Source: an uncultured Clostridia bacterium (GTDB lineage Bacteria; Bacillota; Clostridia; Oscillospirales; Acutalibacteraceae). Taken from it: a DNA stretch of 38,624 nt. This document shows positions 10,106-20,029 of this stretch, one piece after another. The translations under genes were made by a program, and so were the position numbers. The stretch lies in contig CANRAU010000020.1 of assembly GCA_947628665.1 (NCBI GenBank), positions 1 through 38,624 on the forward strand, read 5' to 3'. The notes below the pieces were generated by a model. The model had not been told where the DNA came from, ran no database searches, and saw only the letters and a program-made list of their open reading frames with translations. Positions within the stretch are counted from its first letter, which is position 1; each line of letters opens with the position of its first letter.

Positions 10106-11239
10106 TTGGAATGTTATCTCGACAACAGCGCGACCACCATCCCCTGCAAGGCGGCGGTGGCGGCGGCGAATACGGCGATGCTCGAGGTGTTCGGCAATCC
10201 TTCTTCCTTGCACCGTTACGGATTTGAGGCGCTGCAAATGCTGGAGCGTGCGCGCGCGGAGCTTGCGAAAAGCCTTTCGGCGGACAGTACCGAGCTCTAT
10301 TTCACACCGAGCGGCACGATCTCCAACAATACGGCCGTTTTCGGCGCGGTGCAGCTGGGGCGCAGGCGCGGCAATAAAATCGTCACGACCGCGATCGAGC
10401 ATCCGAGTGTGTCCAAGTGTATGGATCGTCTGGAGGAACAGGGCTTTGAGGTCGTCAGGCTCTTGCCGGACAGCGACGGCAATATTCCCTTGTCGCGGTT
10501 TGAAGCGGCCATCGATGCGCAGACGATTTTGGTCAGCGCCATGGCGGTCAACAATGAGGTCGGCAGCATTTTGCCGTTTGACCGCCTGCAAGCCGTCATT
10601 CGCCAAAAACAGTCTCCCGCGCTCTTGCATGTGGACGCGGTGCAGGGCTATATGAAGCTGCCCATCTCCCCGAAAAAATGCGGGATCGACCTGATGAGCA
10701 TGAGCGCGCATAAGGTACACGGGCTCAAAGGCATCGGCGCGCTGTATATCCGAAAGGGCGTGCGAATAAAACCCTATGTCTTGGGCGGCGGGCAGGAGGA
10801 AGGCATTTGCTCGGGAACGCAGGGCATGCCCGCCATTGCGGCGTTTTCTGCGGCGGTCGGGGAGCTTTCCGACACGCGCGAACGGCTGCAAAGGATCGCG
10901 GGACTTCGGGATATGCTTTTGGAAAAGCTGGACGCTCTACCCATTGTCACGCGCAATTCCCCCGAAAACGCGCTCCCGTATATCCTCAACATTTCTTTAA
11001 AAGGGATTCCCTCGCAGGTCAGCGTCAATGCGCTTTCCGCGCGCGGGGTGTATGTATCGGCGGGTTCGGCCTGTGCAAAGGGACACCGCAGCGGCGTGCT
11101 GACGGCCATGGGGCTGCCCGCGGAGCGCATCGACACCGCCATACGCCTCAGCCTTTCGTCGTATACCACAGAGGAGGAGATCGAATTCTGTGTCGACGCG
11201 ATTTGCGAAATCGCCGCACAGCTTCGGAAAAAGGGATAA
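10106..11239 (+). CDS. Cysteine desulfurase (NifS/IscS family), sulfur donor for ThiI
   Basis: A 377-residue class V aminotransferase starting at TTG 10106, 8 nt after GAAGGAG (10091-10097). It begins with the typical YLDNSATT motif. Lys203 (in SAHKVHGLKG) is the expected Schiff-base lysine for pyridoxal phosphate. Cys323 (in SAGSACAKGH) is the persulfide-forming cysteine on the active-site loop. The enzyme removes sulfur from L-cysteine as a protein-bound persulfide. The next gene, thiI, starts 3 nt after this stop. The pair matches the nifZ-thiI operon of Bacillus subtilis, so a dedicated role in 4-thiouridine formation is more likely than general iron-sulfur assembly. Confidence 0.92.
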   Translation: MECYLDNSATTIPCKAAVAAANTAMLEVFGNPSSLHRYGFEALQMLERARAELAKSLSADSTELYFTPSGTISNNTAVFGAVQLGRRRGNKIVTTAIEHPSVSKCMDRLEEQGFEVVRLLPDSDGNIPLSRFEAAIDAQTILVSAMAVNNEVGSILPFDRLQAVIRQKQSPALLHVDAVQGYMKLPISPKKCGIDLMSMSAHKVHGLKGIGALYIRKGVRIKPYVLGGGQEEGICSGTQGMPAIAAFSAAVGELSDTRERLQRIAGLRDMLLEKLDALPIVTRNSPENALPYILNISLKGIPSQVSVNALSARGVYVSAGSACAKGHRSGVLTAMGLPAERIDTAIRLSLSSYTTEEEIEFCVDAICEIAAQLRKKG

Positions 11240-11242
11240 AGT

Positions 11243-12421
11243 ATGCAGGAAATCATTTTGATCAAAAACGGCGAGCTTGCGCTCAAAGGGCTTAACCGTG
11301 CGACCTTCGAGAGCGTTTTGGTAAAAAATATCAAGCGCAGATTGCACGGCCTCGGGCATTTCGTCATATCCCGTTCACAATCGACGACTACAATAGAACC
11401 GACCGAGGAAGCCTTCGATATGGACGAAGCCGTTGAACGCCTTTCCAAGGTGTTCGGGATCGCGGCTTTTCAGCGCGCGGCGGCGGTTGAAAAGGATATG
11501 TCCGCGATTTTGTCGGCGGCGTGCGATTACCTCCAAGAGCCGCTTTCGCAAATTCGTACCTTTAAGGTCGAGGCCAAGCGTTCCGACAAGGACTTTCCGC
11601 TGACCTCTCCCGAAATCAGCGCCGAAGTCGGCGGAAGACTTTTGGAGACGTTCGGGCATTTGTCGGTCGATGTGCATCATCCCGACTGCGTGGTGACGGT
11701 GGAAATTCGCGAGCGCTTTGCGTATATCCGCTGTAACCAGATCAAAGGCGCGGGTGGTATGCCCGTCGGAACGGGCGGCAAGGCGGCGCTGCTCATTTCG
11801 GGCGGTATCGACAGCCCCGTGGCGGGCTGGATGATGGCCAAACGCGGCATCGTGCTGGATGCGATCCATTTCGCCTCTCCGCCGTACACGTCGCCGCAGG
11901 CGGAAATGAAGGTACACGATCTGCTGCGGCAGGTGGCGGCCTACAGCGGGGACATCGGACTTTATACTGTGCCGTTTACCGAAATTCAGGAGCAGATCCG
12001 CGACAACTGCCCCGAAGAGCTGTTCACGCTGGTGATGCGGCGGTTTATGATGCGCATTGCCGAACGCATCGCCCGCCGTGAGGACTGCGCCGCGTTGATC
12101 ACAGGCGAAAGCGTGGGGCAGGTCGCAAGCCAGACGATCCTGTCGCTCGGCTGTACCGACGCGGTGGTCGGTATGCCGGTATTCCGTCCGCTGATCGGCA
12201 TGGATAAAGACGAGATCATTGTCCGCGCGCGGGCGATCGATACGTTTGACATTTCCATTCGCCCCTACGAGGATTGCTGTACGGTGTTCACCCCAAGGCA
12301 TCCCCGCACCCGTCCGAAGCGCTCGCTTTTGGAGGACGCGGAGCGGGCGTTGGATGTGCCGGCCTTGGTCGAGCGCGCCGCCGCAGACGCAAAATTTGAA
12401 ATCATAAGGAACGAATTCTGA
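11243..12421 (+). CDS. thiI: tRNA 4-thiouridine synthase ThiI (short form)
   Basis: A 392-residue protein. An N-terminal ferredoxin-like/THUMP region (to about residue 165) binds tRNA. The adenylating domain has the PP-loop SGGIDSP at residues 186-192. Cys345-Cys346 (DCCTVFTPRHP) match the region that forms the catalytic disulfide in other ThiI proteins. It lacks the C-terminal rhodanese domain found in Escherichia coli. In such short ThiI proteins the partner desulfurase passes sulfur directly, consistent with the desulfurase gene immediately upstream. The enzyme uses ATP to activate U8 of tRNA and replaces its oxygen with sulfur. Its stop overlaps the pncC start by one base. Confidence 0.95.
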   Translation: MQEIILIKNGELALKGLNRATFESVLVKNIKRRLHGLGHFVISRSQSTTTIEPTEEAFDMDEAVERLSKVFGIAAFQRAAAVEKDMSAILSAACDYLQEPLSQIRTFKVEAKRSDKDFPLTSPEISAEVGGRLLETFGHLSVDVHHPDCVVTVEIRERFAYIRCNQIKGAGGMPVGTGGKAALLISGGIDSPVAGWMMAKRGIVLDAIHFASPPYTSPQAEMKVHDLLRQVAAYSGDIGLYTVPFTEIQEQIRDNCPEELFTLVMRRFMMRIAERIARREDCAALITGESVGQVASQTILSLGCTDAVVGMPVFRPLIGMDKDEIIVRARAIDTFDISIRPYEDCCTVFTPRHPRTRPKRSLLEDAERALDVPALVERAAADAKFEIIRNEF

Positions 12422-12900
12422 TGACTTTGGAAGCGGAAGTGATCCGTCTGCTCAAAGAAAAAGGCAAGACCCTGACCACGGCGGAATCCTGTACGGGTGG
12501 GTTGATTGCGAAGCGTCTGACCGATGTTTCGGGCGCATCCGCCGTATTTGAATGCGGGATCGTAAGCTACTCCAACCGTATCAAAACACAGCTTCTCGGC
12601 GTGCGGGAGGAGACCCTGCGGCGGTACGGCGCGGTCAGCGCGCAAACCGCGCGTGAAATGGCTGTCGGCGCGAGAAGGGCAGCAAACGCCGACTTGGCAG
12701 TAGCCGTTACGGGGATCGCAGGGCCGCTGTCCGACGATACCCAAAAACCCGTAGGGCTGGTGTTTATCGCCCTTGCAGACGGAAATGACGTGACCGTCGA
12801 AAGCTATCAAAACGATTTTTCGGACAATGTCCGCGAAAACAATCGCCGCGCGTCGGCGGATCGGGCATTGGAAATGGTTCGGAGGTGTTTGGCAAAATGA
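12421..12900 (+). CDS. pncC: Nicotinamide-nucleotide amidohydrolase PncC (stand-alone CinA C-terminal domain)
   Basis: A 159-residue protein made only of the CinA C-terminal domain. The signature TAESCTGGLIAKRL is at about residues 20-33, and AVTGIAGP and the GLVFIAL strand follow. The family converts nicotinamide mononucleotide to nicotinic acid mononucleotide and ammonia, recycling by-products of NAD metabolism in the cytosol. It has the full catalytic AESCTGG motif, in contrast to the degenerate copy I infer in the 707-residue protein three genes downstream. It is coupled to thiI (1-nt overlap) and to the first sortase (4-nt overlap). Confidence 0.92.
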   Translation: MTLEAEVIRLLKEKGKTLTTAESCTGGLIAKRLTDVSGASAVFECGIVSYSNRIKTQLLGVREETLRRYGAVSAQTAREMAVGARRAANADLAVAVTGIAGPLSDDTQKPVGLVFIALADGNDVTVESYQNDFSDNVRENNRRASADRALEMVRRCLAK

Positions 12901-13886
12901 GCAATAAGCGTTATTCAAACGCCGTGGACGAGGCGATTGCTTCGAACGGGCAAAAAAAGGCACGATCTCATGCAGGGTCGACGATCAACCGTATCGTTCT
13001 GATTTGTGCCATTGTGATCTTGCTGATCTCGGGTGCGTTTTGCGCGCGGTATTTTTACAATATGTATGCCGACAAGCAGGAAGCGGAGAAAATTGCCGAA
13101 ATGGTGGTTACCGAAACGCAGCCGCAGGAGACATACCCCGCCGAGCCGACCGAGGTGCAGCCGCAGTACCGCGAAGTGTATACGCAGAACAAAGATATGA
13201 TCGGCTGGATCACCGTACCCAACACCGCGATCAACCACCCCGTCATGCAGGCGGACGACAACAATTATTATTTGAAGCATAATTTCTACAGAAAGGTCAA
13301 GCGCGGCGGCTCGATCTATATGGATTATCGGAATTCTGCGGATAAGTTTGACAAAAATACCATCCTGTACGGACACAATAATCTGGATCACACCATGTTT
13401 TCCGATTTGGAAAAATATAAAGATATTGATTTCTACAAAACCGCGCCCGTGATCGACTTCAACACGATCCATGGGAATTACAAATGGAAGGTGTTTGCCG
13501 TTTTTCTGACGACGGCTTCACCCGAACTGGACAACGGCTATGTGTTCAACTACATTTACCCGTCTATGGACGACGACAATTTTATGGAGTTCATTGCCGA
13601 GGTCTCTAAGCGCAGCCTGTATCATACCGACGTGGAGATTTTGCCGACCGATAAAATTTTGACGCTGTCCACCTGCACACGCGATATGGATCTGAACCGC
13701 CGCGAGCAGCAGGATGCACGCTGTGTGGTCATGGCGCGTCTGGTACGCGACGGCGAGAGTACGGCGGTCAACGTATCGGCGGCGACCGTGAATCCCAATC
13801 CGAAATACCCGCAGCTGTGGTATGACAAATACAATCTGCAAAACCCATACCGCAACGATGAAAAATGGTATCCGAGAGGAGCATAA
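12897..13886 (+). CDS. srtB: Class B sortase, first of a tandem pair
   Basis: A 329-residue membrane-anchored transpeptidase. The start at ATG 12897 lies 9 nt after GGAGGTG and overlaps the pncC stop by 4 nt. A transmembrane helix spans about residues 32-54 with the catalytic domain outside. The expected triad is visible: His160 (LYGHNN), Cys260 (TLSTC) and Arg275 (DARCVVMAR). After the catalytic arginine it has a tail of about 50 residues (ATVNPNPKYPQ, YDKYNLQNPY, ending KWYPRGA) shared with the next gene product. Class B sortases cleave a sorting motif on secreted proteins and join them to peptidoglycan or to each other. No sorting-signal protein is encoded in this window, so its substrate is elsewhere. 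Confidence 0.9.
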   Translation: MSNKRYSNAVDEAIASNGQKKARSHAGSTINRIVLICAIVILLISGAFCARYFYNMYADKQEAEKIAEMVVTETQPQETYPAEPTEVQPQYREVYTQNKDMIGWITVPNTAINHPVMQADDNNYYLKHNFYRKVKRGGSIYMDYRNSADKFDKNTILYGHNNLDHTMFSDLEKYKDIDFYKTAPVIDFNTIHGNYKWKVFAVFLTTASPELDNGYVFNYIYPSMDDDNFMEFIAEVSKRSLYHTDVEILPTDKILTLSTCTRDMDLNRREQQDARCVVMARLVRDGESTAVNVSAATVNPNPKYPQLWYDKYNLQNPYRNDEKWYPRGA

Positions 13887-13890
13887 GGAT

Positions 13891-15360
13891 ATGCCGAAGC
13901 AAAATGGCTCGCCCGAACCCGAAGAGGTGCTTTCATTCGACGAATTGAAGAAAAAGCTGGCGGATGACGACGTACAGACGGACGCGCAGACGGATGAAGA
14001 GCTGGATTCCCTGCTGTCGGAGCTTCGGGACATCGTCCCGGAGAATTCACCGGCTGCGGACGATCCCACACCCTCCGCCGCCGAAACGTCCGAACCGGCA
14101 GACGACGCTCCGGCAGACGACGCCGAGCAGTCCGAGGACTATAAAAGCATTTACGACGATGTGCTGCGTTCCGTCATGGGCAAAACGCCGAACGCGAATA
14201 TGACCGGCCGCAAGAGCAAGTTCTTGTCGGGGGACGATCAGTTTGTGGATGTGACCGCGCATTATGAGGATTACGCGGATCTGACAAGTCAGCCGTCCGA
14301 GGAGGACGAACCGCCGCTGCCGGAACAGCCGCAGGTCGTACAGGACGCGGACGGGAGCGAGGAAAAGCATTACCGTACCTTTAACGAAATTTTCCGCGAC
14401 GGCTTTCGCAAGATTTTCCCGAATAAACACGACACGCTCGGCGAGGGGATACGCAAGGCGCTTTTGGATATCGCGGTCGTCACGCTGTGCGGCTGTCTTG
14501 TGTACTTCGGCGTGTATGCGGTGCAGAGCCGACAGGCAAAAAAACAAATTGCGGACATTAAGCAACAGCTTATAGACGATACGGACATTGCCAACGAATC
14601 CGATGTTTGGTCGGAATTTCTTTCCAAGTACCCCAACATTCGCCTGCCCGAGGGGATCATGCCGAAATACGCCTATCTTTACGCCATCAATCAGAATTTG
14701 GTCGGCTGGCTCAAAATCCCCAATACGATCGTCGACGTGCAGGTCGTGCAGGGAAAGGATAATTCCGAGTACTTGAAAAAGGATTTTTACGGCAATTACA
14801 GCCGTTACGGCTGTCCGTATATGGATTATCGGAACGATCCGAAATATTTACAGAAAAATACCATTGTATATGGGCATCATATGAGCGACGGGCTTGTGTT
14901 TGCCGATTTGAAAAAATACCAAACCATAGAGGGCTTTCAGGCTTCGCCCGTGATCCAGTTTGATACGCTTTACCGCAGCTATACCTTTAAGGTGTATGCG
15001 GCGTTCATCTCCAACAGCAAGGAAGAGGACGACGGCGGTTATATTTTCAATTATACGGTCACGGATTTCGGCTCGAACGATAAGTTCATGGAATACATTG
15101 CCGCCGTGGACGAGCGCAAATACTATACCACGGGCGTCGATATTTTGCCGACCGATAAAATTCTGACGCTCTCGACCTGTTCGTATGAGTTTTCCGACGC
15201 GCGTTTGGTCGTGATCGGCCGTATGCTTCGCGATGGGGAAAGCGCGGCAGTCGATACGACCTTGGCGACCGCCAACAGCAATCAGCGTTTCCCGCAGGCG
15301 TATTACGACAAAAAGGGACAGACCAATCCCTTTGCCGACGCGCCGAAGTGGACGCCGTGA
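13891..15360 (+). CDS. srtB: Class B sortase with long acidic cytoplasmic N-terminus, second of a tandem pair
   Basis: A 489-residue protein; ATG 13891 lies 4 nt after the first sortase's stop, behind AGAGGAG. About 190 residues precede the membrane helix (about 191-212). They are very rich in D, E, P and S and probably disordered in the cytosol. The outer catalytic domain has His329 (VYGHHM), Cys430 (TLSTC) and Arg438 (DARLVVIGR). The C-terminal tail (ATANSNQRFPQ, YYDKKGQTNPF, ending KWTP) mirrors the first sortase, so the pair arose by duplication. The long inside extension is unusual for sortases, which normally have only a short cytoplasmic stub. It could be a regulatory or partner-binding region. 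Confidence 0.88.
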   Translation: MPKQNGSPEPEEVLSFDELKKKLADDDVQTDAQTDEELDSLLSELRDIVPENSPAADDPTPSAAETSEPADDAPADDAEQSEDYKSIYDDVLRSVMGKTPNANMTGRKSKFLSGDDQFVDVTAHYEDYADLTSQPSEEDEPPLPEQPQVVQDADGSEEKHYRTFNEIFRDGFRKIFPNKHDTLGEGIRKALLDIAVVTLCGCLVYFGVYAVQSRQAKKQIADIKQQLIDDTDIANESDVWSEFLSKYPNIRLPEGIMPKYAYLYAINQNLVGWLKIPNTIVDVQVVQGKDNSEYLKKDFYGNYSRYGCPYMDYRNDPKYLQKNTIVYGHHMSDGLVFADLKKYQTIEGFQASPVIQFDTLYRSYTFKVYAAFISNSKEEDDGGYIFNYTVTDFGSNDKFMEYIAAVDERKYYTTGVDILPTDKILTLSTCSYEFSDARLVVIGRMLRDGESAAVDTTLATANSNQRFPQAYYDKKGQTNPFADAPKWTP

Positions 15361-15413: not shown

Positions 15414-17537
15414 ATGATGAAGAATATGGATATGAAACTGCTGGCGCTTTCCGCCGGGGAAAATTCGGGGATTTTGGCGCGCATTTCGGGCGCACTGAGC
15501 AGCTTTGCACAGGAGAATGCCGCGTTTGCGGTGTACCCGACGCTCAAAGCCATGCTGCCCGATTTTGCCGCGGCCGTTAAAAACGCCCGGCTGATCGTGC
15601 TTGCCATCGACAAGAGCCAATACAACGTCGTCCGTGCCAAGCTTTGCGCGGCGCTGTCGCTTAGGGTGACGCAGGACGACAAAATCTATCGGCTGCTGTC
15701 GGAGAGTACGGGGCTTTCGCATGAGGAAAAATTGAGAAATGCCGTTGTCCCCGAAGGCGCGCGCGTATTTTTATCCGAGGACGGGATCCATTCGGGATTT
15801 GCCGTGCAGAAGGGCGCGCAGTGCATTTTGTTCCTGCCGCTGGACAGCGACCGTATCGACCGCATCTTAAAAAACGGCGTTGTGCCGTATTTGATGCGCC
15901 GCGAAGTGCAGCAAGCTCCCCAAAAAGCGCCAAAGGCCGAAGCAGCGCCGCGAGCGGAAGATTTCGACCCGTTTTCTGCGGATGTGATGCGGCACACCCT
16001 TAATGCGCTGCGGGAAAGCGGCGCGCGCGTGGCCGTCAGCAGCACGCCGGCGGCGCAGACGCTCAAAACCATGGGCGCCTCTCATGCGGATTTTGAGGAT
16101 TTCTTTGTGTTCACGCCGCACGTCGAGGATAAGGGCGATTACAATACGACCGATTACGCCGCGTTGACGGCGAAATCCGCCCGAGAGCTTGCCAAAACGC
16201 AGCTCGGCGCGTGCATTTCCGAAATGGACAGCGGCGAGGGCGGCGACTTCATTTACATCACGGTCGCGGACGACAAAACCGCCGTTGTGCGCAAGCTGTA
16301 CCGCGAGGATCGGGAGACGGAACGCGATTTCATGCAGGACGCGACCGAGGAATTGGTCGCCCTCATTGCCGAGAAAATGTCCGGCAGGGGTGCGGTCGGC
16401 ATAGAGGTCGCGGGCGCAGCCCCTTCGGAGCGCACGGGCTTCTTCTCGACAAAATCGGGGAAAATCGCCGCTGCGGTGTTTGCGTTGGTGCTGATCGCGG
16501 CCATCGTTCTCGGGTGCGTACTCTTTGTGCGCGAGTCCAAAAAGGCCGAGCAGCCGACCACGACCGCGCCGATCATCACGCAAAGCCAAACCGCCGGGGA
16601 AACGCCCGTGGTGACGAATACACTGTCGCTGTCGGAATTGATGTATAAAGAAATGCGCGAGGGCGTGGGGGAAACGCCTGCCGAAGTGACGACGGAGAAC
16701 CCCTCCGGCGCGGCGATCGACATCACCGGCAACGCCGGTCAAACGGCGTCGGATATTCCCGAAACCATGCTCGTCAACGGCCGCGAAATGGACGCGAAAG
16801 AGGCGCTTGCCAAAATGCTTGCGGCAGAGTCGACGGATACGATCTTAAACGAGGAAGCGCTTAAGGCGCAGGCGGTCGCGGCCTACACCTATTTGAAATA
16901 TCGAAATACCAACTGGAAAATTACGGGCGTTTCCTTAGCGGACGAATACAGCGACGAGGTGTATAACGCCGTGCGCGCGGTGTTCGGCGAATATCTTTCG
17001 TTCGGCAACGCCCCTGCGTTTACGCCGTTCTTCCGCCTTTCTGCGGGCAGAACCACTGCGGCCGATGCGGTATACGGAAAGAATTTCCCCTATCTGCGCG
17101 CGGTGGACAGCGTGTCCGACAAAACGCAGGACGAATACAAAACCGAACTGATTTTCTCCGCGACGGATCTGCGCGATTTGGTTTTGGCGTATGACGCCAA
17201 TCTGACGCTGGGCGACGATCCGAGCCAATGGATCGAGATCACCCGCCACGACGGCGCGGTCAATGTGGGCGTCGGCTATGTGGAGACCATATCGGTCGGG
17301 GGCAAGGAGATTTCCGGCATCGATTTTGTAAAAAAGGTCTTACAGGGCAAAAATCTGCCGTCGCAGTGCTTTTCCGTGACGTATGCGCCGAACACGGACG
17401 AATTTATGTTCGAGATTTACGGCGTCGGATACGGCGTCGGTATGAGCCTGCTCGGCGCGGACAAAATGGCGGCAACGGGTTCCGGCTATGCCGAGATCCT
17501 GTCAAAATTTTACGGCGGTACACAGTTGACCGCTTGA
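15414..17537 (+). CDS. Membrane protein with degenerate CinA-like N-terminal half and extracytoplasmic SpoIID/LytB domain
   Basis: A 707-residue protein. Starts at 15414, 15417 and 15426 are all possible behind GAAGGA. Residues about 7-147 follow the pattern of the CinA N-terminal molybdopterin-binding-like domain, including VFLSEDGIHSGFAVQKG and FLPLDSDRIDRILKNGVVPYL near its end. Residues about 190-322 follow the PncC/CinA C-terminal domain (TAKSARELAKTQLGACI, then a TVADDK strand), but the catalytic AESCTGG is replaced by VSSTPAAQ. One membrane helix spans 351-373, then a T/E-rich linker. Residues about 450-705 are SpoIID/LytB-like: EALKAQAVAAYTY after the candidate catalytic Glu472, and YGVGMSLLGAD at 673-683. 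SpoIID proteins are peptidoglycan lytic transglycosylases. The usual His of HGVGM is Tyr673 here. The SpoIID part is confident; the CinA relation is my inference from motif order. Confidence 0.75.
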   Translation: MMKNMDMKLLALSAGENSGILARISGALSSFAQENAAFAVYPTLKAMLPDFAAAVKNARLIVLAIDKSQYNVVRAKLCAALSLRVTQDDKIYRLLSESTGLSHEEKLRNAVVPEGARVFLSEDGIHSGFAVQKGAQCILFLPLDSDRIDRILKNGVVPYLMRREVQQAPQKAPKAEAAPRAEDFDPFSADVMRHTLNALRESGARVAVSSTPAAQTLKTMGASHADFEDFFVFTPHVEDKGDYNTTDYAALTAKSARELAKTQLGACISEMDSGEGGDFIYITVADDKTAVVRKLYREDRETERDFMQDATEELVALIAEKMSGRGAVGIEVAGAAPSERTGFFSTKSGKIAAAVFALVLIAAIVLGCVLFVRESKKAEQPTTTAPIITQSQTAGETPVVTNTLSLSELMYKEMREGVGETPAEVTTENPSGAAIDITGNAGQTASDIPETMLVNGREMDAKEALAKMLAAESTDTILNEEALKAQAVAAYTYLKYRNTNWKITGVSLADEYSDEVYNAVRAVFGEYLSFGNAPAFTPFFRLSAGRTTAADAVYGKNFPYLRAVDSVSDKTQDEYKTELIFSATDLRDLVLAYDANLTLGDDPSQWIEITRHDGAVNVGVGYVETISVGGKEISGIDFVKKVLQGKNLPSQCFSVTYAPNTDEFMFEIYGVGYGVGMSLLGADKMAATGSGYAEILSKFYGGTQLTA

Positions 17538-17562: not shown

Positions 17563-18576
17563 ATGGCGATTTTGATTACAGGCGGAACAGGGTTTATCGG
17601 CTCGCATACCTGCATTTCCTTAACGGAGGCGGGCTATGACGTGGTCATTGTGGACAATTACTACAATTCCAGCCCCAAGTCCTTAGCGCGCATCTGCGAG
17701 CTGTGCGGAAAGGATTTAAAATTTTACGAGTGCGACATTCGCGACAAGGCGGGGCTGCAGCGTGTATTTACGGAGAATAAAATCGATGCGGTCATCCATT
17801 TCGCAGGGCTGAAGGCTGTCGGCGAATCCTGCCAAAAGCCTTTGGAGTATTATGACAACAATGTCAACGGCACGCTCTGCCTGTGCGATGTCATGCGGCA
17901 AAACGGCTGCAAAAATATCGTGTTCAGTTCGTCCGCAACGGTTTACGGCATGCACAATGTCTCGCCGCTGAAAGAGACGATGCCCACGGGCGGCACCACC
18001 AATCCCTACGGCACCACAAAATATATGATCGAAATCATTTTGCAGGACATCGCGAAAGCAGACCCCGCGTGGAACGTCACACTCCTGCGGTATTTCAACC
18101 CCATCGGCGCGCACAAAAGCGGCAGGATCGGCGAAAATCCGAACGGCATTCCGAATAACCTCATGCCCTATATCACGCAGGTCGCCATCGGCAAACTGCC
18201 GGAGCTTTCGGTTTACGGCGACGATTACGATACGCCCGATGGCACGGGTGTGCGCGACTACATCCATGTGGTGGATTTGGCCGAAGGGCATGTGAAGGCG
18301 CTGGACCAGATGCTTACGGGCAACAAGGGCGTACAGATTTTCAACCTCGGTACGGGCGTTGGGTACAGCGTGCTGGATATCATTCATGCGTTCGAGGAGG
18401 CCAACGGCGTCAAGATCCCGTATAAGATCGTCGGCCGCCGACCGGGTGATATTGCGACCTGCTATTCCGACCCCACCAAGGCGCGCGAGGTACTCGGCTG
18501 GGAAACCAAGCGCGGGCTTCGGGAAATGTGCGAGGATTCCTGGCGCTGGCAGAGCATGAATCCTAACGGCTTTTAA
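17563..18576 (+). CDS. galE: UDP-glucose 4-epimerase
   Basis: A 337-residue extended short-chain dehydrogenase, the family's typical length, with GGGAGGT before ATG 17563. It shows the NAD motif GGTGFIGSHTC at the N-terminus, FSSSATVYG with the catalytic serine region, NPYGTTK with the Tyr/Lys pair, and RYFNPIGAH. The cytosolic enzyme interconverts UDP-glucose and UDP-galactose through a 4-keto intermediate. It serves the Leloir pathway and supply of galactose units for surface polysaccharides. It follows the SpoIID-like gene by 25 nt and no other gal gene is adjacent. A wall or glycan role is therefore as likely as galactose catabolism. Confidence 0.95.
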   Translation: MAILITGGTGFIGSHTCISLTEAGYDVVIVDNYYNSSPKSLARICELCGKDLKFYECDIRDKAGLQRVFTENKIDAVIHFAGLKAVGESCQKPLEYYDNNVNGTLCLCDVMRQNGCKNIVFSSSATVYGMHNVSPLKETMPTGGTTNPYGTTKYMIEIILQDIAKADPAWNVTLLRYFNPIGAHKSGRIGENPNGIPNNLMPYITQVAIGKLPELSVYGDDYDTPDGTGVRDYIHVVDLAEGHVKALDQMLTGNKGVQIFNLGTGVGYSVLDIIHAFEEANGVKIPYKIVGRRPGDIATCYSDPTKAREVLGWETKRGLREMCEDSWRWQSMNPNGF

Positions 18577-18607: not shown

Positions 18608-19180
18608 ATGATGAAGAAAAAAGGTTTGATCGCTTTGGCGGTCGTTATAGTGGTCGTGCTTATATTGGTTGGCACGGGCATCAGTTCTTATAACGAATTG
18701 GTGGAGGATCACGAGGAGGTCGCAGCAGAACAAGCCAATATTGAGACGTATTTGCAGCGCCGCGCGGATCTGATCCCGAATCTGGTCAGCACCGTAAAGG
18801 GTTACGCGGCACACGAGGAAGAGGTGTTCACCGCGCTTGCCGACGCGCGTGCGGCGCTGGCGGGAGCAAGCACCGTAGAGGAAATGAACCAGGCAAACGA
18901 TCAACTGGATTCCGCGCTTTCCCGACTTCTCGTCGTGGTGGAAAATTATCCGGAATTAAAGGCGGATCAGCAGTTTATCAATTTGCAGGACGAACTGGCA
19001 GGCTCTGAAAACCGCATTGCACAAGCGCGGAACGAATACAACGAAGAAGTGCGGGAATACAATGCCGAGATCCGCAAATTCCCGACCTCGATTTTTGCAA
19101 AAATGTTCGGTTTTGAATCGGCCGTGTATTTTGAGGCAACGGAAGCATCGCAAACCGTGCCGACCGTGGACTTTGATTAA
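18608..19180 (+). CDS. lemA: LemA family membrane protein
   Basis: A 190-residue protein. GAAAGGAG (18596-18603) precedes ATGs at 18608 and 18611; either may be used. A single N-terminal membrane helix (about residues 6-27) is followed by the LemA helical domain, with the family signature VEDHEEVAAEQANIETYLQRRADLIPNLV broken at usual positions. LemA proteins are predicted to expose a short N-terminus outside and a helical body inside. Their function is unknown. They commonly pair with a TPM-domain protein, as here 21 nt downstream, which suggests a joint membrane or envelope-quality role. Confidence 0.92.
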   Translation: MMKKKGLIALAVVIVVVLILVGTGISSYNELVEDHEEVAAEQANIETYLQRRADLIPNLVSTVKGYAAHEEEVFTALADARAALAGASTVEEMNQANDQLDSALSRLLVVVENYPELKADQQFINLQDELAGSENRIAQARNEYNEEVREYNAEIRKFPTSIFAKMFGFESAVYFEATEASQTVPTVDFD

Positions 19181-19201
19181 CGAGCGGAAGGAAACAGAGG
19201 G

Positions 19202-20029
19202 ATGAAACGATTGGCGGCTCTTTTGGGAGCAGCGCTTTTGTGCGTGGTTGTGCTTGTGCCCGCATCGGCGGCAAAAACGACCTATCCGCAGCCGACAAAC
19301 AGCTTTTTTGTCAATGATTTTGCAGACTGCCTGACCGAGCAGGACGAAGCCCAAATGCAGCAGCTTGGTGAAGAACTGTATCGGGCGACCGAGGCACAGG
19401 CGGTCGTGGTCACGGTGCGTTCTTTGGACGGCGAATCCATCGAAGATTACGGCTACGGCCTTGCAAACGCCTGGGGAATCGGGGAGGAGGAAGCGGATTC
19501 CGGCGTGCTGCTTTTGCTCTCCACAGAGGATCGCAAGGTGCGCATCGAAGTCGGCAAGGGCTTGGAAGGGCGATTGACCGACGGCAAGACAGGACGCATT
19601 TTGGACGAGTACGCCATTCCCTATTTGCGCGAGGACAATTTTTCCGAAGGACTTTTGCAGGCTTACACGGTTATCGTCAACGAGGTGTATACCGAATATG
19701 GAATAGAGGTTTCGGATTACACGCCCGTGGAGGAGAATAAACCCGTAAAGACGGAGAGTTATGTAGGGGCGGGCAAAGCGTTTGCGTTCATCCTGCCGAT
19801 CTTGCTTACCGTGGCCTTGATTCTCTGGAACAATATCAGCGGTCCGCGCCCAAGAAGACGACGCCACGGCGATAGCCCCTTTTACGGCGGCTTTTATGGC
19901 GGCGGGGGCGGCTCTTTTGGGGGCGGCGGTTCGTTCGGCGGCGGCTCATTCGGCGGAAGCGGCGGAGGAGGTTCCTTTGGCGGCGGAGGCGGCTCGTTCG
20001 GGGGCGGCGGCAGTTCACGCGGGTTCTGA
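19202..20029 (+). CDS. TPM domain membrane protein (YgcG-like) with glycine-rich tail
   Basis: A 275-residue protein. A signal peptide covers about residues 1-23 (cleavage near ASA-AK). The TPM domain lies at about 30-150, with FVNDFADCLTEQDEAQM, SGVLLLLS and GKGLEGRLTDGKTGRILDE. A second membrane helix is at about 193-209, followed by an arginine-rich patch. The last 45 residues are almost only G, S and F in GGSFGGG repeats. The TPM domain would face outside and the tail inside. Such tails are common in TPM/YgcG proteins next to LemA. Proposed roles range from phosphatase-like activity to envelope repair and remain unsettled. Confidence 0.9.
   Translation: MKRLAALLGAALLCVVVLVPASAAKTTYPQPTNSFFVNDFADCLTEQDEAQMQQLGEELYRATEAQAVVVTVRSLDGESIEDYGYGLANAWGIGEEEADSGVLLLLSTEDRKVRIEVGKGLEGRLTDGKTGRILDEYAIPYLREDNFSEGLLQAYTVIVNEVYTEYGIEVSDYTPVEENKPVKTESYVGAGKAFAFILPILLTVALILWNNISGPRPRRRRHGDSPFYGGFYGGGGGSFGGGGSFGGGSFGGSGGGGSFGGGGGSFGGGGSSRGF

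Follow-up and report, generated by a model that had tools for sequence, protein, structure and literature searches.

A gene in the window, the 38,624-nucleotide stretch of clostridial DNA analysed here, is predicted to encode a single-pass membrane protein in which a dead descendant of full-length CinA would lie inside the cell and a SpoIID-type lytic transglycosylase outside it. Taken with the class B sortases encoded beside it, this combination suggests a wall machine working from inside to outside that has not been described before, novel as a system although each of its domains has a known fold. The dead CinA may dock SpoIID onto a living CinA or PncC and a sortase in one membrane complex; this is the reading that we favour, and we hold it as a serious possibility, short of calling it probable.

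The fusion gene and its locus

The features of the locus are collected in Table 1. Since its open reading frame overlaps that of sortase 1, sortase 2 probably has its real start downstream of the annotated one. Beyond galE, a lemA gene and one for a TPM-domain protein whose tail is rich in Gly (window 18608-20029) follow in many loci of the genus. A promoter and terminator scan gave 9 and 22 sites, where chance alone would give 6.8 and 16.9. An artefact of gene calling or assembly is rejected, with zero inner stops in the listed genus matches from 35 separate genomes. The same fusion protein was also present in 34 of the 35 named-record loci, the exception being truncated where its contig ends, many of these loci coming from the same assemblies as the genus genomes and so not being independent samples.

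Table 1. Features of the fusion gene and its neighbours, in window coordinates
Feature	Position	Strand	Evidence
iscS-type cysteine desulfurase (presumed from the sequence), marker of conserved locus	10106..11239	+	
thiI, marker of conserved locus	11243..12421	+	PF02568 E 1.8e-66
Stand-alone pncC (NMN deamidase), active-site motifs present	12421..12900	+	PF02464 E 2.6e-55; alignment
Class B sortase 1	12885..13886	+	TIGR03064 186.2 bits, cut-off 153.75
Class B sortase 2, long acidic N-terminal part	13822..15360	+	TIGR03064 160 bits, cut-off 153.75
Pseudo-CinA / transmembrane / SpoIID fusion protein, 707 aa	15414..17537	+	
Degenerate CinA MoCF-like (COG1058) domain, residues 5-167	15426..15914	+	
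Degenerate PncC-like domain, residues 186-325; active-site Tyr/Lys loop is a gap	15969..16388	+	
Predicted transmembrane helix, residues 351-372	16464..16529	+	Sequence; hydropathy and flanking charge, 44 relatives
SpoIID/LytB lytic transglycosylase domain, residues 451-707, predicted extracellular	16764..17534	+	5i1t E 1.4e-21
Glu472, aligned to catalytic E101 of C. difficile SpoIID	16827..16829	+	
galE-type epimerase, conserved 3' neighbour	17563..18576	+	PF01370 E 6.4e-60

The CinA-derived half and its lost active sites

The sequence-only reading had recognised in the N-terminal half the domain order of CinA, MoCF-like and then PncC-like, and this order is borne out. Profile-profile comparison matched the two parts to CinA MoCF and to PncC with probabilities of 97% and 90%, respectively (at most 5% in 100 column shuffles of either), and the AlphaFold model of the CinA-like part has Thermus CinA as its top PDB match, so that the structural check proposed for the MoCF/CinA folds ended in a match and not in the lack of one. 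A Pfam search for PF02464 and PF00994 returned no match in the fusion protein up to E 1, and the CinA model NF001813 scored 17.3 bits, missing its cut-off of 379. No KH domain was matched between the MoCF and PncC parts in any dead-CinA architecture read. A hidden one is ruled out in the fusion, residues 168-185 being too short to hold it; residues 167-180 form a low-confidence linker in the AlphaFold model.

The active sites were compared in an alignment of 44 CinA rows (15 from sortase fusions), 32 PncC rows that lack a recognised living MoCF (29 PncC alone and three joined to a sortase) and 51 dead rows (45 with a PncC part, six lacking it). Passages of the Thermus thermophilus CinA study name Lys301, with Tyr296, Thr340 and Arg377, as deamidase residues and Glu12, Asp45, Asp76 and Glu156 as pyrophosphatase residues (PMC4246079). 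Tyr296 and Lys301 are kept in 44/44 CinA and 32/32 PncC rows and gapped in all 51 dead rows, in agreement with the earlier claim of a dead PncC site. Arg377 is likewise kept in 44/44 CinA and 31/32 PncC rows and is mostly acidic, otherwise replaced or gapped in the dead rows; the Thr340 position is the exception, with Ser in 35 dead rows and Thr in 10. On the pyrophosphatase side, Glu156 is kept by 44/44 CinA rows and is Arg in 36/51 dead rows. In the N-terminal third, which aligns poorly, Glu remains at E12 in 9/51 dead rows and Asp at D45 in 5/51, and at D76 Asp falls outside the six commonest letters. The fusion itself fails both as an NMN deamidase, scored on Tyr296, Lys301 and Arg377, and as an ADP-ribose pyrophosphatase, scored on E12, D45, D76 and E156. 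To judge by sequence, both CinA active sites are lost from its cytoplasmic half.

The membrane helix and the outer SpoIID half

The proposed membrane helix is well supported, a hydrophobic helix following the PncC part in 44/44 dead-CinA proteins and in 0/29 CinA and 0/29 PncC proteins. Its N-terminal flank is more positive than the C-terminal one in 33 of these 44 proteins, equal in five and less positive in six, so the CinA-derived part most likely lies inside the cell. Likewise, the outer SpoIID/LytB domain named by the sequence-only reading is recovered by PF08486 (27.6 bits, cut-off 23), by TIGR02669 (90.1 bits, cut-off 83.3) and by a fold match to the SpoIID structure 5i1t. The fusion scores 113.2 bits against the sporulation SpoIID equivalog TIGR02870 and misses its cut-off of 234.75. 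The catalytic glutamate of C. difficile SpoIID is given as Glu101 in the portion of PMC6221140 consulted. At the aligned Glu472 position, 34 members of the genus carry Glu (30), Asp (two) or Ala (two), and the catalytic Glu is kept in 42/45 SpoIID domains across the architectures read. The outer half is therefore predicted to be a SpoIID-type lytic transglycosylase with its catalytic Glu in place.

A neighbourhood of iscS, thiI, pncC and class B sortases

Eighty loci were read: 20 from the genus, 20 from other families of the order and 40 from the family, the last chosen for strong dead-CinA matches or long frames and thus a non-random sample. A class B sortase stands directly upstream of the fusion in 20/20 genus loci (of 36 genus genomes), pncC is present at the locus in 18/20 and absent there in two, and galE lies downstream in 19/20, so that the suggested adjacency of pncC and sortases holds. 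No frame with both living CinA domains was matched in the 36 genus genomes; PncC frames in the genus span 60-226 aa, and MoCF matches occur in six genomes, elsewhere than pncC. In the 20 loci that represent the order's other families, thiI or iscS lies near cinA or pncC in 14, and a sortase is found in four, adjacent in one and fused in three (PncC-SrtB twice, CinA-SrtB once). PncC-SrtB and CinA-SrtB fusions (L103:5773-7578, L104:4252-6486 and L105:10201-12921) occupy the same iscS-thiI locus in three other families of the order.

A sorting-signal scan of the open reading frames of the 80 loci and the window produced one candidate sortase substrate, a protein of 892 aa with an IPDTG-type C-terminal signal encoded next after a dead-CinA-SpoIID gene (L184:10305-12980). 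Elsewhere, a PncC-sortase fusion adjoins a SpoIID-like protein (L036:5633-7810) whose linker is a long Gly-Ser-Thr repeat. Three class B sortase-type proteins (L181:5521-8355, L188:4081-6927 and L190:3495-6311) carry about 700 unrecognised residues before the sortase domain, for which no Pfam match was found up to E 0.1. The L190 protein has zero Pfam matches, and its sortase domain, called by a purpose-built profile, has lost His and Cys.

Sister architectures and their dead partners

Beyond what the sequence-only reading had noticed, the same few domains recur in other combinations across the 80 loci. Dead CinA, followed by the helix, was found with SpoIID in 30 proteins and without it in 14, and a pseudo-MoCF domain with SpoIID in three and alone in two. 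Living CinA is joined through a helix to sortase B in 10 proteins with all CinA domains, in one more without a KH match and in another cut by a contig end; two are PncC-SrtB fusions. Four proteins are triple CinA-TM-SrtB-SpoIID fusions, one is pseudo-MoCF-SrtB-SpoIID and four are SrtB-SpoIID; SpoIID lacks a CinA-type or sortase partner in three. Each of the 42 multi-domain SpoIID chains read has at least one dead partner, whether CinA, sortase or the two together.

The sortase side was scored for its His, Cys and Arg triad in an alignment of 105 domains. The triad is kept in 10/10 complete CinA-SrtB and 2/2 PncC-SrtB proteins and in 74/82 free sortases (78/82 keep His and Cys), and 0/9 sortase domains that share a chain with SpoIID keep His or Cys. 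Among CinA-sortase chains without SpoIID, it is intact in 10 of the 11 readable, L202 being dead and L215 cut. SpoIID therefore rides on dead partners, and living CinA goes with living sortase (10/11). A dead MoCF domain stands at the N-terminal end of three of the five SrtB-SpoIID proteins (L209, E 2.5e-27; L213, 1.4e-9; L204, 3e-6) and was looked for and not found at that of the other two, L201 and L200.

A Pfam check of seven sister proteins confirmed the CinA and sortase domains of three CinA/PncC-SrtB proteins and the CinA domains of two triple fusions. Neither triple fusion received a sortase call, and SpoIID got no call in one and scored below cut-off in the other; a SrtB-SpoIID protein had SpoIID above cut-off and no sortase call, and a dead-CinA-SpoIID protein of another genus scored 22.6 for SpoIID, just below the cut-off of 23. 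Sister domains without a Pfam call above cut-off rest on purpose-built profiles. At 1064-1196 aa, each of the triple fusions L212, L214, L211 and L208 unites living CinA, a transmembrane helix, a dead sortase and SpoIID in one chain; three of them (L208, L211 and L212) also have, between iscS and thiI, a free-standing sortase that keeps His and Cys.

The 14 dead-CinA proteins without SpoIID include two (L192 and L195) that adjoin a second dead-CinA protein with SpoIID and two (L194 and L197) with a separate SpoIID, while the stretch read holds none in the other 10. Cutting is therefore not the constant part. The separate SpoIID of L194 (L194:6948-7724, an open reading frame reaching the contig end) adjoins the dead-CinA gene and follows a dockerin type I domain (PF00404, E 1.5e-12), possibly making it a scaffold-docked wall enzyme. 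In two genomes of one genus, the dead-CinA matches (G631:C29:14327-15367 and G562:C54:41006-42040) each cross one TAG, perhaps through a frameshift, an alignment artefact or recoding.

Spread, origin and selection

The fusion is present in 35 of the 36 genus genomes, the one without it being 75% complete; it is cut by contig ends in G005 and G007, and one genus copy, at a contig end, shows no MoCF part. Together with its occurrence in other genera, this answers the proposed search for the architecture in other Clostridia. The genus members on record are metagenome-assembled genomes and uncultured isolates, mostly gut-labelled, two of them Candidatus Fimenecus. Among 300 sampled genomes of the GTDB family, 74 matched the dead-CinA profile at E <=2e-14, 28 of them in frames of at least 700 aa. 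They are called dead CinA because ordinary CinA from the phylum sample scored at best 9.5e-12, and for four, in frames of about 205 aa, the call rests on the profile score. At least 41 further family genomes gave weaker matches in frames of at least 650 aa; among 17 of these loci, 15 proved to be CinA or PncC fused to a sortase and two dead MoCF-SpoIID. An order-wide profile search covered 394 genomes and is represented here by its stronger-scoring matches among those listed. Across 299 genomes sampled from the phylum, dead CinA was matched in the window's own genome alone, the other 33 matches (frames of 413-467 aa) being taken as ordinary CinA. Among 148 genomes of the class (five from this order), no open frame with PF02464 exceeds 532 aa, so that in this sample the association is confined to this lineage.

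In a tree of the MoCF domain (82 rows), the dead CinAs form one clade of 38 rows (100/100) and the CinAs one of 44 rows (100/100); thinning left out 13 genus-member loci, together with rows shorter than 110 residues. Since the tree is midpoint-rooted, has several long branches and a bootstrap that had not settled, a single origin of dead CinA is likely, not proven. The sequence-only reading had suggested that the fusion may have arisen from the stand-alone pncC near it. That origin is not supported, since the fusion has a MoCF domain, the dead CinAs form their own clade, and in several other genera the same iscS-thiI locus holds both a dead copy and, next to it, a full-length CinA. For the same reasons, gene order and tree make the fusion look like an older duplicate of full-length CinA, and the stand-alone pncC like the reduced original.

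The dead domains are under purifying selection and are not decaying. Across 11 pairs of related genus members, dN/dS lay at 0.012-0.105 in the PncC part, at 0.057-0.200 in the MoCF part (computable for 10 of the 11 pairs in each) and at 0.018-0.180 in SpoIID (11/11), ratios that are rough because dS exceeds 1 in many pairs. MoCF exceeded PncC in eight of the nine pairs with both computed.

Proposed role and alternatives

In the docking reading, the dead CinA domain would act as a docking subunit, its partner being the living CinA or PncC encoded beside it, and the pseudo-sortases of the sister proteins would pair likewise with a living sortase. Wall cutting by SpoIID and wall anchoring by sortase B would thereby be brought into one membrane complex, with glycan strands opened where the sortase attaches proteins, and the living CinA-sortase and dead-SpoIID fusions would be the same complex in different cuts. 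According to passages of the Thermus study, the NMN deamidase domain dimerises through an extensive interface (PMC4246079). Dead and living copies could therefore pair in this way, which would be the simplest reason for keeping two dead domains folded. Homology, active-site loss, the membrane helix, the kept SpoIID glutamate, purifying selection, the constant sortase neighbour, the sortase triad pattern and the fusions among CinA, sortase and SpoIID speak for docking. The triple fusions combine living CinA with a dead sortase and therefore fit it on the sortase side only; the dead-CinA proteins without SpoIID, the two genus loci without pncC, the four members of 34 without Glu472, the dead L202 sortase and the confinement of the association to this lineage count against it.

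Alternatively, the dead CinA domains might bind a small molecule, a nucleotide and perhaps a new one, and switch SpoIID across the membrane, in line with the signal-coupled enzyme first proposed. Residues F233, T234, P235, E238, D239, G241, T246 and Y248 of the PncC-like part are invariant in the genus and sit about where the catalytic loop was deleted; with the low dN/dS, they have the look of a new binding site. However, the motif is only loosely common to dead CinAs of other genera, the NMN/NaMN and ADP-ribose residues are gone (Tyr296/Lys301, R377 and E156 above), and a single helix with a Thr-rich linker is, in our judgement, a poor signal path. Because the known ligand residues are gone, we prefer docking to sensing, which we regard as rather unlikely.

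That the CinA part is cytoplasmic ballast, holding SpoIID at the membrane with neither partner nor ligand, is less credible still. SpoIID is elsewhere anchored by one N-terminal helix, which shows that one suffices, and the higher dN/dS of MoCF is in keeping with ballast; yet a plain anchor needs no two folded domains kept under purifying selection in 35/36 genomes, and it leaves the matching dead-sortase pattern unneeded. A second sporulation SpoIID, acting in engulfment with the CinA part setting its place or time, seems very unlikely: the outer domain does match the SpoIID structure, and SpoIIP, described in part of PMC6221140 as the partner that prepares the SpoIID substrate, is found in 22/23 genus genomes searched, but a separate SpoIID is matched in 36/36 genus genomes (35 frames of 326-386 aa and one of 222 aa), and the fusion falls below the equivalog cut-off and sits with sortases in the loci read.

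Comparison with known systems

Most of the class has CinA, its PncC domain being present in 131 of the 148 genomes sampled, and its role beyond NAD recycling is little understood. A role of cinA in pneumococcal transformation was ruled out by a cinA stop mutant, according to the part of PMC11708029 consulted. In the portions seen of a 2013 survey of NMN deamidases (PMC3855486), the CinA domain is occasionally fused to other domains, which were set aside there, and the word 'sortase' is absent from its main text. The titles and abstract openings returned by a literature search, mostly outside subscription journals, report no CinA-sortase, CinA-SpoIID or SpoIID-sortase proteins. The living CinA-sortase fusions and their dead twins on SpoIID make a testable claim, namely that two wall enzymes and an enzyme of NAD salvage form one complex. 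If true, paired pseudo-enzymes on both faces of one membrane would recruit an active enzyme. The whole proposal, that a gut-Clostridia family built a CinA-fold transmembrane wall-remodelling machine in which living CinA is joined to sortase B and SpoIID is carried by a dead twin of CinA, of the sortase or of both, with twins pairing on both membrane sides and the NAD-salvage enzyme tying nucleotide recycling to surface-protein anchoring, is more speculative than docking itself, and we advance it as a tentative idea that may well prove wrong.

Gephyrin is a MoCF-fold enzyme reused as a receptor scaffold beneath a membrane; it differs in being eukaryotic, in its other domain partners and in not deriving from CinA, and any likeness of role would be a guess. 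With CinA itself (T. thermophilus, 4ct8), the fusion shares the folds and the order of MoCF (COG1058) and PncC, whereas it has no KH domain, has both active sites lost and has gained a transmembrane helix and SpoIID. With SpoIID (C. difficile 5i1t and 5txu, B. anthracis 4rwr) it shares the outer fold and the catalytic Glu, but its SpoIID follows 345 residues of cytoplasmic pseudo-enzyme, scores under the equivalog cut-off and has a SpoIID paralogue of normal size in its own genome. The class B sortase, the fusion's constant neighbour, is in sister genera itself fused to living CinA.
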